This document shows positions 38,698-47,766 of a stretch of 64,000 nt of DNA, piece by piece (the first letter of the stretch is position 1; every line of letters starts with the position of its first letter). The stretch is from assembly GCA_904396495.1 (NCBI GenBank), contig CAJFOJ010000032.1:1-64000 (forward strand). The letters are read 5' to 3'. Source of the stretch: an uncultured Oscillospiraceae bacterium (GTDB taxonomy: Bacteria > Bacillota > Clostridia > Oscillospirales > Ruminococcaceae). The notes under the pieces were generated by a model. It had not been told where the DNA came from. It saw nothing but the letters and a program-made list of their open reading frames with translations, and did not search any database. The translations under genes were made by a program, and so were the position numbers.

Positions 38698-38712
38698 TTT
38701 TTAGTAACGTTG

Positions 38713-38820
38713 TTTCGGGGCGGAGTGAGATTCTCCACCGGCGGTGACAGTCCGCGAACACGCTGTGCGTGCCGATTTGGTGAAATTCCAAGACCGACGG
38801 TATAGTCCGGATGAAAGAAA
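38713..38820 (+). promoter_or_regulatory. FMN riboswitch (RFN element)
   Basis: The conserved blocks are all present in order: TCGGGGCGGAGTGAGATTC, CACCGGCGGTGACAGTCCGCGA, GCCGATTTGGTGAAATTCC, AGACCGACGGTATAGTCCGGATGAAAGAA (each quoted part shortened to its known core). It senses flavin mononucleotide and precedes a terminator and the riboflavin transporter gene, as expected for an off-switch. Confidence 0.98.
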
Positions 38821-38871
38821 CACATCTCAAATGCTTTCCTATGTTGGGGGAGCCGATTTAGATGCGTGTTG

Positions 38872-42192: not shown

Positions 42193-42741
42193 ATGAATAT
42201 ATTGATTATAAATTGTAGTCCAGTGAAAAACGGTGCTACTTCTGAAATAGTAAACCTTGTAAATACATATACCAAAGAGAATAATGATGTAAGATGTGTA
42301 TGTATTGATGATTTTGATATAAAATTCTGTAAAGGATGCAGGCAGTGTCATACAACAGCGGAGTGTTTTCAAAAAGATGATACAGAAAAACTAATTGAAC
42401 ACTATAAATGGGCTGATAGAATTGTGTCTGTATCTCCGTCGTATTGGGCTGACATTCCAGGACAATTCAAAGTATTTATCGATAGGTGCACTCCTTGGTG
42501 CAATACCCATGAACCTCATGCAACGATACCACAAGGCAAGCGTGGTTATGTGATTGCCTTAAGAACCGGTCCCAGTATGCCTGAGTGTGAAAAAATAATT
42601 GGAAGCATCGAACATTTCTATGGACATCTTGAAATAAAATCATGTGGCAGTCTAGGATTATGCTCTGTTGAATACAAAGAAGATGTCACAAGCAGAGTTG
42701 ATGAAATAAAGTCGTTTTGCGAAAAGAATATTCTTGCATGA
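42193..42741 (+). CDS. Iron-sulfur flavoprotein / NAD(P)H-dependent FMN reductase-like protein
   Basis: A 182-residue flavodoxin-like protein from ATG 42193 with GGAGG upstream. It has the flavin-binding start ILIINCSPVKNGATSEI and a compact cysteine cluster CKGCRQCHTTAEC (C-x2-C-x2-C-x5-C), as in archaeal iron-sulfur flavoproteins that bind a 4Fe-4S cluster. SPSYWADIPGQFKVFIDR is the second flavin loop. Base and codon use are clearly more AT-rich than the neighbours, and the gene sits between imperfect direct repeats, so horizontal gain is likely. Its electron donor and acceptor are unknown. Confidence 0.87.
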   Translation: MNILIINCSPVKNGATSEIVNLVNTYTKENNDVRCVCIDDFDIKFCKGCRQCHTTAECFQKDDTEKLIEHYKWADRIVSVSPSYWADIPGQFKVFIDRCTPWCNTHEPHATIPQGKRGYVIALRTGPSMPECEKIIGSIEHFYGHLEIKSCGSLGLCSVEYKEDVTSRVDEIKSFCEKNILA

Positions 42742-42926
42742 ATTCCAAGTTAATAGAGTTTGGGATATTTCCGACAAGCGAAAGTCTCTCTTACTGTCGC
42801 AAGCAAAAGCGAGTATTTTTATGGAAAGGGTACCCTTTTCCTATGCTTGCTACGGAACTTTTAACAACGGAATGGAAAGGACACTCTAAACGAGTAGCGT
42901 TTCTCTTTGAAATGTTACGCAGTTAA
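42738..42926 (+). CDS. Possible small protein, element remnant
   Basis: A 62-codon frame starts at ATG 42738, overlapping the stop codon of the flavoprotein gene (ATGA). The product has many aromatic and basic residues (FLWKGYPFPML, WKGHSKRVAFLFEML) and no recognised domain. There is no separate ribosome site, so it would depend on coupling. It may be a real small protein of the lost element or a chance frame. Confidence 0.35.
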   Translation: MNSKLIEFGIFPTSESLSYCRKQKRVFLWKGYPFPMLATELLTTEWKGHSKRVAFLFEMLRS

Positions 42927-43101
42927 AGGGCATTTTTGAGAGAAGATATGTAAATGTTCTGTTCCATTGATTTTCGTGTCCGTAAGGTCTTGTTTACAAG
43001 GCTTATTACCCCTCTAATGCGTAACGTAAGAGGTAAAACAAGGCAATTCTAAACTGCCTTTATGGGAGTAATAACACAGTTATGTGTATCATCTTATTTG
43101 C

Positions 43102-43159
43102 GGTGCTCAAATGGTGCCCAACTTTACAAAACCAACTTATACGGGGATATAAAGCGATA
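43102..43159 (+). repeat. Direct repeat, right copy (possible attachment-site relic)
   Basis: Shares GGTGC-N2-AAATGGTGCCCAA and GGGATATAAAGCGATA with 41898-41943. Between 42927 and 43101 the insert also carries short inverted repeats (TTACCCCTC/GAGGTAA and AAGGCA/TGCCTT) but no gene. Confidence 0.6.
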
Positions 43160-43279: not shown

Positions 43280-43335
43280 GTTTCAGAATATTGAAAAAGG
43301 CCGCCAAAAGGCGGCCTTTTTCAATATTCTGAAAC
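43280..43335. terminator. 26-bp perfect palindromic terminator
   Basis: The arms 43280-43305 and 43310-43335 are exact reverse complements around an AAAA loop, with CTTTTT / AAAAAG segments inside each arm. Lying between convergent genes, it can stop transcription from both sides. The perfect, long stem is exceptional in this window. Confidence 0.88.
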
Positions 43336-44020: not shown

Positions 44021-44884
44021 TCACAGCAGGCGATAGCGATCTAAAGTTTGGTCTTGGGTCAGCCAAGACAAACAGGATTCCAGCATGACGCCGTATCTAG
44101 TATCGCTTCCATAGCTAAAGGTGGTGCGGATGGCAATTTCCAGAAATCGCGTTGCCCGCTCAATAGCCATGGGGAGGCTGTCGCCCCCCAACATCGCCCC
44201 AACCATGACGCTGGCAAAAATATCGCCTGTGCCTGGATAGGAAGCCGGCACGTAATTGCAGTCCACCCGCCAATATTCGCCCCGTTCCCGGTCATACCCG
44301 ATATTGGCGATTTTACCGTCAGCCAACTCTACTCCAGTTACGGTGACGTACCGTGGGCCCAGTTCGCTCAAACGGGCCACGAGGCTTTTAGCCTCGGACT
44401 GCCGCAAAGGGGCGCTTGGAAAGGGAATCCCCAGTAGAATAGAAGCCTCCGTCAAATTGGGCGTAATCATGTCGGCCACTGCCACTAATTCATTCATCCG
44501 TCGGCACATATCGGAGGTATAGGTTCGGTAAGCTTTACCGTTGTCCCCCATGACCGGGTCAACCACCGCAAAAGCATCAGGATAGGCGGCAAAATATTGC
44601 AGGCAATGGTCGATTTGCTCCAGTGAACCCAAAAATCCGCTGTACACGCATTCAAAGTTGAGTTTTAATCTCTTGTAATGCTCCAGCGCGGGGGATAGAT
44701 AGTCGGTGAGATCCCGAAATACCACTTCTCCCAGCCCGCCGGTATGGGTGGACAGCACCGCCGTGACGACAGGGCATACCTGAACTTTCATAGCAGATAG
44801 GGTGGGCAGAATAACTGATAGAGAACATCTGCCAAAACCGGACAAATCGTGGATTGCAATGACGCGAGGCGGCCTTTTAAGCAT
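44021..44884 (-). CDS. Pyridoxal/pyridoxamine kinase
   Basis: A 287-residue ribokinase-fold kinase that phosphorylates B6 vitamers to make PLP. It has the PdxK/PdxY start VIAIHDLSGFGRCSLSVILP, TGGLGEVVFRDLT, VVDPVMGDNGKAYRTY, TPNLTEAS and the catalytic anion-hole/base motif YPGTGDIFASVMVG. Start ATG 44884 has GGAGGAA upstream. It is the first gene of a two-gene unit with the ECF S component, forming a compact vitamin B6 salvage module. PdxY and PdxK activities cannot be told apart from sequence alone. Confidence 0.93.
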   Translation of the reverse strand: MLKRPPRVIAIHDLSGFGRCSLSVILPTLSAMKVQVCPVVTAVLSTHTGGLGEVVFRDLTDYLSPALEHYKRLKLNFECVYSGFLGSLEQIDHCLQYFAAYPDAFAVVDPVMGDNGKAYRTYTSDMCRRMNELVAVADMITPNLTEASILLGIPFPSAPLRQSEAKSLVARLSELGPRYVTVTGVELADGKIANIGYDRERGEYWRVDCNYVPASYPGTGDIFASVMVGAMLGGDSLPMAIERATRFLEIAIRTTFSYGSDTRYGVMLESCLSWLTQDQTLDRYRLL

Positions 44885-45012
44885 AATGGAATTCCTCCGT
44901 GAATTACAGAAACCTCAGCATCTGTAATCTATTTTAGAAAAGAAAACGCGGGAAAGCAAATTACTTTAATTGTTGGTATTTTAGCAGAAAATCCTGCAAA
45001 ATCAACAAGAGT

Positions 45013-45044
45013 ATTATATCGCAATTTGCCTTGGTTGGCAAATT
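45013..45044 (-). promoter_or_regulatory. Promoter of the B6 salvage operon with overlapping palindrome
   Basis: Read leftward: TTGCCA (45036-45041), a 17-base spacer and TATAAT (45013-45018). A perfect inverted repeat AATTTGCC-N6-GGCAAATT (45023-45044) covers the -35 and the spacer, the place for a repressor. The 120-nt leader down to the kinase gene shows no terminator. Confidence 0.75.
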
Positions 45045-45270
45045 TCACCGACGAAAACAAAAAATATTTTTATCTCTCTAAGAGCTGTAAAACAAAATAA
45101 ACAAAATAAATATAATCCAAAACAGTATGCTTGTATATTTAGTAGAATCTTATCTTCCAAACATCGCCTCTATTATAAGATAACTTTCCGGGGATAATAT
45201 AATAACGGAATGCAGATGGGAAATAAAAACTGTTTGCTACAACCGTTCGAATAATCTGGGAGGTGTTATT

Positions 45271-45447
45271 ATGACAAAGACAATGAGCAATGTTGTGAAA
45301 GGAATTGCCGCTGGAATGTTGGTGGGAACTGCGGCATATGTGGCGGGCCATACTAGCAAAACCAAGGGCAAACAGATGAAAAAGAAAGCAGCCAAAGCCA
45401 TGAAAACAGTGGGGAATGTTTTTGAAAATATTTCTTATATGATGTAA
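45271..45447 (+). CDS. Small YtxH-like protein
   Basis: 58 residues: one weakly hydrophobic Gly/Ala segment (GIAAGMLVGTAAYVAGH) followed by a lysine-rich helix (KTKGKQMKKKAAKAMKTVG). This organisation resembles small YtxH/general-stress membrane proteins. GGGAGG lies 8 bases before ATG 45271, and a strong terminator follows 3 bases after the stop, which supports a real gene. Function unknown. Confidence 0.82.
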   Translation: MTKTMSNVVKGIAAGMLVGTAAYVAGHTSKTKGKQMKKKAAKAMKTVGNVFENISYMM

Positions 45448-45450
45448 AGT

Positions 45451-45480
45451 AAAAAGGCTGAAACCGTTTCAGCCTTTTTT
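45451..45480 (+). terminator. Intrinsic terminator of the small YtxH-like gene
   Basis: AAAAAGGCTGAAA-CCG-TTTCAGCCTTTTTT, a perfect 13-bp stem with its U-tract. Confidence 0.95.
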
Positions 45481-45502
45481 ATTTGCTCACAGTAGCGAAA
45501 AA

Positions 45503-45578
45503 TTTACATTGAAAAAGACAATTTTCTTGGCAATTTTTACATTTTTTTCTTTACAAAATGGTTTGTCCGTGGTATAGT
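45503..45578 (+). promoter_or_regulatory. Promoter of a non-coding stretch, with repeated TTTACATT boxes
   Basis: TTTACA (45550-45555), a 17-base spacer and TATAGT (45573-45578). Two TTTACATT boxes at 45503-45510 and 45536-45543 lie 33 bases apart, about three helix turns, directly before the -35. They may be activator sites. Confidence 0.7.
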
Positions 45579-45584
45579 ATGAAT

Positions 45585-45838
45585 ATACGCAAATTAAGGG
45601 GCACTCATGTAAAGATACAATAATGTATTTTTACATTAGCGCTGCTTAAATGGTTTTTCTTTTCGAAAATTGTGTCAATGTGGTGACGTTGGAAGCTGAG
45701 AACTGACTGACGGTTCTTTCTGTTGGGGGTTAGAAACGGCGGTCGGATTCTAGTCTACAAGGGATCTGTATTGGGACGGTGATTGGAAAGAGTAGATCAA
45801 TCACTTTTGAGTGCTCCTTTTGCACGCGTTACATACTA
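45585..45838 (+). ncRNA. Candidate structured RNA, first part
   Basis: About 250 bases after the promoter at 45550-45578 have no open frame of note but several hairpins. One is a 13-bp stem 45607-45619 with 45624-45636 and an ATAA loop. Others are AGAAC/GTTCT near 45698-45716, CTGAC...TTTCT/AGAAA...GTCGG near 45707-45746 and GTGATTG/CAATCAC near 45780-45803. No terminator closes it before the second promoter, so the transcript may run on to 45996. No family (6S, RNase P, tmRNA, SRP) was recognised. Confidence 0.5.
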
Positions 45839-45848
45839 TTTGTATAAT
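45820..45848 (+). promoter_or_regulatory. Second promoter in the non-coding stretch
   Basis: TTGCAC (45820-45825), a 17-base spacer and TATAAT (45843-45848). Confidence 0.75.
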
Positions 45849-45854
45849 GGCATG

Positions 45855-45996
45855 TCCTTATACGAAAATATGGGGATTTTCGATTGAATTAAGGATAATA
45901 TGTCGATATTATACATTTTGTAGTATTTTAAGTATCTTTTCATGTGTATAAAATATGATACAGCAGGGCTTGGAGTATTTCTAAGCCCTGCTTTTT
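45855..45996 (+). ncRNA. Candidate small RNA with own promoter and terminator
   Basis: About 140 nt between a good promoter and a strong terminator, with no reading frame. It can fold as an outer stem TCCTTA/TAAGGA enclosing CGAAAAT-ATGGGG-ATTTTCG. Next come ATAATAT-GTCG-ATATTAT and a GTATC/GATAC stem, then the terminator. The serial hairpins point to a functional RNA. It is not an mRNA leader for the next gene, which has its own promoter at 46115. Confidence 0.6.
45962..45996 (+). terminator. Terminator of the candidate small RNA
   Basis: AGCAGGGCTT (45962-45971), 11-base loop, AAGCCCTGCT (45983-45992), TTTTT. Confidence 0.93.
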
Positions 45997-46114
45997 GTGC
46001 AGAAAAATCCACTCCACAAATATAAATGATTCTGTTGATAGGGGTAAAAGTAACATTTTGTTTTAAAGTTATGGCTGATACCTATAGATGACGCCTACGC
46101 CTAAAGTTTTGACC

Positions 46115-46144
46115 TTGACAGCTCTTTGCCTTCCCCTCTATAAT
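46115..46144 (+). promoter_or_regulatory. Promoter of the HAD phosphatase gene
   Basis: TTGACA (46115-46120), an 18-base spacer and TATAAT (46139-46144), about 45 bases before the start codon. Confidence 0.88.
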
Positions 46145-46187
46145 GGATGAGAAACAGAGACCGTTATGATGAGAAAGGGAAGATTTT

Positions 46188-46853
46188 ATGATCCGACTGT
46201 GTATTTTTGATTTAGATGGAACACTGATTGATTCGCTGCAAGACTTGGCTAACAGCTGTAATGCTGTGTTGCGGGAAGATGGATTTCCTGTCCACTCGCT
46301 GGATGCATACCGCTACTTTGTAGGCAACGGGATTCCTAAGCTCATTGAGCGGATCCTCCCGGAAGACAAGCGGACAAAAGAACGCATGGCCGATGTGCAG
46401 AAACGGTTTGATAAATATTACCAAGTTCATTGCCTGGATGCTACAGGGCCTTATCCAGGGATTCAAGAATTGCTGACAGCATGTCGGGAAGAAAAAATTT
46501 TGCTTTCGGTATTGTCCAATAAAGCGGAGCCCTTTGCAAAACTCATCTGCCGGGAGATATTTGGAGATGGAATTTTTGATGCAGTGTGCGGCCAGAAGCC
46601 GGAGGTTCCCAAAAAACCCGCTCCAGACGGTGTATTTTCCTTATTGCGAAAATTTGCGATCCGGCCAGAACAGGCTATTTTGATCGGGGATTCCAATGTG
46701 GATATCTTGACTGCCCAAAATGCAGGTATCCATTCTATAGGAGCGTGTTGGGGATTTCGCGGCCGGGACGAGTTGACAGAGGCAGGCGCTGAAGCCCTTG
46801 CTAACACTCCAAAAGACTGTCAAGCTATCATTTTCCACAAAAATTGGGAGTGA
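46188..46853 (+). CDS. HAD-family phosphoglycolate-phosphatase-like hydrolase
   Basis: A 221-residue HAD hydrolase with motif I FDLDGTLIDSLQDL, a helical cap with RYFVGNGIPKLIERIL, motif II VLSNKAEPFA, motif III Lys in QKPEVPKKPAPDG and motif IV IGDSNVDILTAQNAG. This cap (GxxG near residues 48-52) is typical of Gph proteins. The in vivo substrate is not certain, since these enzymes act on several phosphates. It has its own promoter. Confidence 0.9.
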   Translation: MIRLCIFDLDGTLIDSLQDLANSCNAVLREDGFPVHSLDAYRYFVGNGIPKLIERILPEDKRTKERMADVQKRFDKYYQVHCLDATGPYPGIQELLTACREEKILLSVLSNKAEPFAKLICREIFGDGIFDAVCGQKPEVPKKPAPDGVFSLLRKFAIRPEQAILIGDSNVDILTAQNAGIHSIGACWGFRGRDELTEAGAEALANTPKDCQAIIFHKNWE

Positions 46854-47552: not shown

Positions 47553-47646
47553 TAACAATTGTCAACAAAAGCTGTGAGCACACAGCGGTCAGATAATTTA
47601 TGAGAAAGTGGGAGGTGCGTTTTTAAAACAAAATGAAAACCAAGAT

Positions 47647-47683
47647 AAAAAAAGCGTACAGTTGGGGGTACGCTTTTTTTATT
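47647..47683 (+). terminator. Terminator 1 after the lipoprotein gene
   Basis: AAAAAAAGCGTAC/GTACGCTTTTTTT stem (47647-47659 with 47668-47680) and an 8-base loop. Confidence 0.92.
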
Positions 47684-47717
47684 TTGTATCATTAAAAAAG
47701 CAGGTTGAAAATCGTTA

Positions 47718-47766
47718 AATAGCAGAAGTCCTTTACGAAGATAAAGGACTTCTGCTATTTTTATTT
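47718..47766 (+). terminator. Terminator 2, tandem
   Basis: An 18-base arm 47718-47735 pairs with 47742-47759 around CGAAGA, followed by TTTTTATTT. It lies 35 bases after the first terminator with no gene between. Confidence 0.92.

Follow-up and report, generated by a model that had tools for sequence, protein, structure and literature searches.

What kind of element occupies positions 45503-45996 of the window, by which we mean the whole 64,000-nucleotide stretch of DNA analysed here, and from what did it arise? The initial annotation described a non-coding locus there, at coordinates that proved correct, and read it as one or two unnamed non-coding RNAs under regulation. The locus is preceded by a 58-aa open reading frame (45271-45447) with its own terminator (45451-45479) and followed by a gene for a HAD hydrolase. 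As had been claimed, it holds no usable reading frame on the + strand: the longest is 46 aa, and stop-free runs within 45585-45829 reach at most 32 codons. On sequence grounds, its interpretation as a non-coding RNA gene is well supported by a strand-biased fold, a conserved promoter, hairpins and a closing helix with compensatory change, and the lack of an Rfam match. This gene probably descends from a dual-purpose mRNA of the lipid kinase gene dagK, whose reading frame would have been lost at least two times while the RNA was retained.

Transcription signals and predicted fold

The first of the two promoters proposed earlier is borne out and is of the extended -10 type (Table 1). The second exists as a string, either TTTGCA-18-TATAAT at 45819-45848 (10/12) or TTGCAC with a spacer of 17 from 45820, but has no counterpart in relatives, and the stretch 45823-45961, which includes most of it, is not significantly folded (z -1.2). 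One RNA is consequently well supported, whereas the second is not. Promoter-like sites number 13 in 44880-46200, compared with 4.5 ± 2.1 in shuffles. The paired TTTACATT boxes, which had been taken as a regulatory signal, did not hold up: the window contains six copies where 3.05 ± 1.58 are expected, and the pair is missing in relatives. With a box frequency near chance, the proposed regulation by phased boxes is not supported. The strong terminator was recovered at the 3' end of the locus, and the following HAD gene does have a promoter of its own 3' of it, a perfect consensus (TTGACA-18-TATAAT, 46115-46144).

Table 1 Features of the RNA locus in the window
Feature	Position	Strand	Basis and remarks
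RNA promoter	45550-45578	+	TTTACA-17-TATAGT, TG before -10 (extended -10), 10/12; alignment with intact dagK and RNA loci
Structured RNA core	45585-45829	+	Predicted start ~45585; three-way junction plus outer helix; z -6.95 to -8.3
Outer helix, 5' strand (GCAAA)	45589-45593	+	Pairs with 45819-45823; relatives have CTGA/TCAG here
P1 closing helix, 5' strand	45596-45607	+	Fold; test of cognate versus swapped arms
Relict Shine-Dalgarno (AAGGGG)	45596-45601	+	Now within P1; alignment with L192 AAGGAG-CACTTT-ATG
Relict start codon ATG (45607-45609), then TAA (45610-45612)	45607-45612	+	Alignment, sequence
P2 hairpin	45608-45635	+	Equals the 13-bp stem 45607-45636 of the initial annotation
P3 long arm with internal loops	45651-45799	+	14 G.U-type mismatches, 1 A.C-type mismatch
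Apical GUUGGGG loop	45722-45728	+	Common to all relatives, there within a hairpin that formerly encoded KLGNR
P1 closing helix, 3' strand (GAGTGCTCC)	45808-45819	+	Corresponds to the KSAPSA codons of dagK
Outer helix, 3' strand (TTTGC)	45819-45823	+	Fold prediction
Intrinsic terminator	45962-45996	+	Hairpin 45962-45992 plus T-tract; likely end of primary transcript

The predicted transcript is strongly structured. Positions 45585-45825 fold at -86 kcal/mol (z -6.95; no shuffle matched), and 45585-45996 give a z of -8.1. The fold is biased toward the + strand (-82.3 kcal/mol vs -50.7 kcal/mol for the - strand), and across 36-60 kb the scan gave just one more extreme + strand fold, a long hairpin near 43280 that resembles a bidirectional terminator; eight coding controls gave z values near zero. 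The 13-bp stem noted before recurs as P2 in this fold. What had been missed is P1, a 12-bp helix (45596-45607/45808-45819) that spans ~200 nt and closes a three-way junction of P1, P2 and the ~150-nt arm P3. Together, P1 and P3 account for most of the structure. Alignment of the halves of P3 by Watson-Crick matches only left 14 mismatches of the G.U type and one of the A.C type (binomial ~5e-4); an inverted repeat in decay should accumulate both types equally, which suggests that selection has acted on the + strand RNA. A palindromic DNA element was considered separately and was rejected in view of the strand-biased fold, the many G.U pairs and the weaker DNA fold.

Relatives beside pdxK

The locus returned no Rfam 15 match at the gathering score, and matches with E up to 10 were attributable to chance; nine contigs holding frame-less relatives likewise gave no Rfam match. 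Sequence searches did not lead further: BLASTN searches with the locus in 397 family genomes, in phages and in plasmids yielded chance matches only, a covariance model built from the single sequence (R1) matched only the window itself, and a search of the genome contigs with the HAD protein found no close relative. The window's genus is represented by one genome in the comparison set. Synteny of pdxK (44024-44884) led instead to two neighbouring genera, g93 with 84-86% identity and g31 with 74-81%, and also to g67 (74%). Genomes of g31 and g93 carry a non-coding stretch beside pdxK with a TTTACA-17 promoter and a central hairpin, e.g., CTGTT-TAAAGTTGGGG-AACAG. Arm P3 of the window ends in the same GUUGGGG as this hairpin, while the flanking stem differs.

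With the window left out of its construction, a model of the apical hairpin (R2) matched every g93 genome (six) and every g31 genome (seven) in the family sample; over all g31 genomes it matched 12 of 14, and one of these 12 matches lies in the intact dagK gene of genome G426. Matches of R2 in other genera (E 0.002-0.05) were judged to be chance after reading L169, L171, L172 and L173. Frame-less loci amount to 17 relatives in g31 and g93, or 18 counting the window, and measure about 240 to 515 nt; counts of loop conservation among them are partly circular, as the motif itself served to find several relatives; synteny was the first route to ten loci, that of the window among them. R2, a short and sequence-driven model, does not find the window, just as R1 links the window to no relative. 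Since R2 misses it and little long sequence identity exists, membership of the window in a dagK-derived RNA family rests on synteny, promoter, helix and loop: the locus has the slot beside pdxK with TTTACA-17-TAnnnT, the coevolving closing helix, and GUUGGGG as the loop of a hairpin.

The comparison of paired bases with relatives that had been proposed for this locus came out in favour of an RNA, in that the closing helix and the apical hairpin are conserved with compensatory changes. When the arms of P1 were swapped between loci, the cognate sets of 5' and 3' arms had the best total energy of 720 arrangements (six loci) and of 40320 (eight loci), in a test that ignores relatedness and in which the 3' arms were placed partly by eye. 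Two of six pairs in the apical hairpin are changed on both sides, and its covariation score was reached in 0 of 500 shuffles; the alignment of five g31 genomes contains 14 pairs with double changes, with a covariation term of +2.5 that is not favourable, so that the detailed fold of the long form is provisional. Significant folding was found at 11 of the 12 loci tested, with + strand z values of -3.8 to -8.3 that were always more extreme than those of the - strand; the exception is L161 (z -1.0). Promoters are kept with the same 17-nt spacing at all loci, and g31 neighbours are separated by many indels with lengths not divisible by three. Before GTTGGGG the loci have a run of three, four or five A, with GTTGGGG itself unchanged, which indicates that the loop was kept and the frame was not. 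In G092 (L199) and G290 (L200) the block comprising the small ORF, pdxK and ECF is apparently inverted and the RNA gene lies on its other side; because it kept its promoter beside the inverted block, the RNA appears to be an independent gene and not a leader of HAD.

Correspondence with dagK

The R2 match in G426, a g31 genome, falls inside an intact protein gene, that of a YegS/DagK lipid kinase (PF00781, PF19279). Intact dagK also occurs in two g67 outgroup genomes, in the same slot as the window RNA, and the g67 gene order (pdxK, small ORF, dagK, HAD, DUF4358, MBOAT, DHHW) is that of the window with dagK replacing the RNA. The intact gene of G426 has the same promoter as the RNA loci and the leader GAACGCCTGAGAAGGAGCACTTTATG. 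In the alignment of leaders, GAACGCCTGAGAAGGAGCACTTT-ATG of G426 stands opposite ATACGCAAATTAAGGGGCACTC-ATG-TAA of the window, and AAGG(A/G)GCACT and the ATG of the window are in register with intact dagK. Because this ATG directly precedes TAA, no protein is expected from the old start, and in the g31 RNAs the former ATG is now TTT or TTG. In P1 the former ribosome-binding region, AAGGGGCACTCA, pairs with TGAGTGCTCCTT, which lies ~200 nt downstream and matches the dagK codons for KSAPSA. Within this downstream strand the window reads AGTGCTCCTTTTGCACG and G426 reads AGTGCTCCCTCAGCACG, a correspondence equalled in 26 of 5000 shuffles; the single-arm similarities of the window RNA have p of only about 0.005-0.07. 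Neither the ORF list nor tblastn of DagK revealed a reading frame with a DAGK_cat domain at the window locus, the latter giving no match there, and the frame-less loci contain no recognisable GGDGT or GND catalytic motif. Likeness to the YegS/DagK gene (PF00781 + PF19279; G066, G159, G426) thus comprises position, promoter, Shine-Dalgarno leader and KSAPSA codons, with the closing helix also in G426, whereas the window differs in having no frame, in its far shorter length and in lacking the catalytic motifs. Judged by these correspondences, the window locus appears to descend from the dagK transcript and to occupy the place of dagK.

The intact G426 gene is coding and structured at once. Its mRNA has a z of -8.7 over 760 nt in dinucleotide shuffles, and this structure is long-range, because halves of 400 nt reach only about -2. 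In synonymous-codon shuffles that fix protein and codon usage the z is -5.1 (0 of 60 shuffles), as against -0.3 and -1.0 for the dagK mRNAs of the g67 outgroup. In the predicted fold of the G426 mRNA, the KSAPSA codons are base-paired to the Shine-Dalgarno leader, which is the later P1; of all its coding windows, the two with the greatest complementarity to the leader are those retained in the g31 RNAs. The two leader-complementary pieces are a hint, drawn from complementarity, of two alternative pairings. In the pdxK tree (clade support 100/99) G426 is nested in the RNA-bearing clade; this implies two or more losses of the frame, unless the gene in G426 was re-acquired. These observations allow the tentative proposal, to which we give somewhat less than an even chance, that the dagK mRNA was bifunctional, with an RNA role hidden in or around the coding sequence, and that it turned into a pure structured RNA repeatedly in one clade, the frame having disappeared independently in two or more lineages and G426 still being dual-purpose.

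A separate observation concerns the g31 RNAs (L145-L147, L187, L188), in which the 5' leader has two mutually exclusive partners, one derived from the EVRFY codons and one from KSAPSA, both of which are kept. A two-state RNA is possible in this genus; if true, the two alternative leader partners would make the RNA a two-state switch.

Proposed course, competing explanations and known systems

In the course of events that we favour, the dagK mRNA of this clade would have had a function at the RNA level besides coding, and the RNA would have been kept and shortened as the frame was lost at least twice. Transcription in the window would start at ~45585 and proceed without translation, and should stop at the terminator, perhaps with subsequent trimming to P1. 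The product may act as a free-standing structured RNA, its mechanism being the least certain step. P1 could keep ribosomes off and stabilise the molecule, and the exposed GUUGGGG loop might, as a guess, be a contact site for a protein or a target RNA.

A neutral relic, i.e., a dagK pseudogene in decay that has no RNA function and in which the promoter and some fragments have yet to be erased, would fit a locus that is the positional counterpart of dagK and the occurrence of several lineages without a frame, with lengths varying from about 240 to 515 nt. We consider it unlikely, as the retained pieces are those that pair in the RNA while GGDGT and GND are unrecognisable, and as strand-biased folds, compensatory change, the excess of G.U over A.C and the constant 17-nt promoter spacing count against it; in G092 and G290, moreover, RNA and promoter are intact beside the inverted pdxK block. 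An improbable alternative is that an unrelated structured RNA came to lie in the former dagK slot and resembles the g31 and g93 RNAs by chance. The weak similarity in primary sequence and the different architecture within the closing helix are in keeping with this, but slot, promoter type, the register of AAGG(A/G)GCACT and ATG, the pairing partner and the apical GUUGGGG are all shared. HAD directly follows the locus in the window, G384 and G030, as would be expected if the locus were a cis-regulatory leader or attenuator of that gene, yet the strong terminator (45962-45996) and the consensus promoter of HAD itself (46115-46144) intervene and other genes follow in g93 and most g31 genomes, which makes such a leader very improbable. 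Least probable of all is an orphan retron msr-msd or a second 6S RNA: the order of closing repeat, short hairpin and long hairpin resembles a retron RNA, but no reverse transcriptase (PF00078) occurs anywhere in the draft genome (97% complete), 6S RNA is present elsewhere (C32:160682, 74 bits) and the locus has no RF00013 match.

Descent from a dagK mRNA, which we prefer to these readings, has partial parallels. In SgrS/SgrT, a dual-function sRNA, a small peptide is encoded inside a regulatory RNA. Such sRNAs resemble the dagK case in that one transcript has coding and RNA roles and the coding role can be lost; the starting point in the dagK case, however, is the mRNA of a full-length enzyme. 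Dual-function sRNAs have been treated as a class (PMC8383071). In E. coli, the ipeX sRNA derives from the porin transcript of a cryptic prophage, is processed from a longer RNA and acts on ompC (PMC12197685). It is, like the window RNA, a bacterial RNA derived from the transcript of a protein gene, whereas in the window a whole gene would have become a structured RNA, and in a chromosomal lineage. Mammalian lncRNAs that descend from protein genes, e.g., XIST from Lnx3 (PMC5577775, PMC12101419), share with the window RNA a transcript that outlives its frame and keeps inherited elements; the window RNA differs in being bacterial, compact and kept by base pairing, with an intact dual-purpose relative still extant. 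In the literature searched we found no account of a gene for a bacterial enzyme having become a conserved structured RNA, which is not proof of absence.

How bacteria acquire new structured RNAs is poorly known, and conversion of the mRNA of a lost lipid-kinase gene into a folded RNA would be a rarely seen route. Starting gene, dual-purpose intermediate and several frame-less descendants can be compared side by side, which makes the step from enzyme mRNA to RNA gene testable. The locus also serves as a warning that "pseudogenes" and "empty" intergenic regions can contain conserved RNAs invisible to Rfam and BLAST.

The surroundings of the locus contain further features. The 58-aa protein encoded at 45271-45447 is conserved, has no Pfam match, often adjoins pdxK and has a relative in 70 of 148 family genomes. 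An FMN riboswitch (RF00050, 104.7 bits) lies at 38707-38826, upstream of an ECF transporter gene. About 400 bases at 42741-43150, between a flavodoxin-like gene and the 43280 hairpin, have no clear gene and may hold remnants of an old gene. The hairpin itself (43280-43335), flanked by two convergent genes, is a perfect inverted repeat of 26 bp whose loop measures 4 nt; no stronger fold occurs in 36-60 kb on either strand, and it would be a long bidirectional terminator or a repeat element. After the DUF4358 gene, 47641-47760 holds two strong hairpins in tandem, one at 47641-47686 and the other a perfect 19-bp pair (47717-47735/47742-47760).
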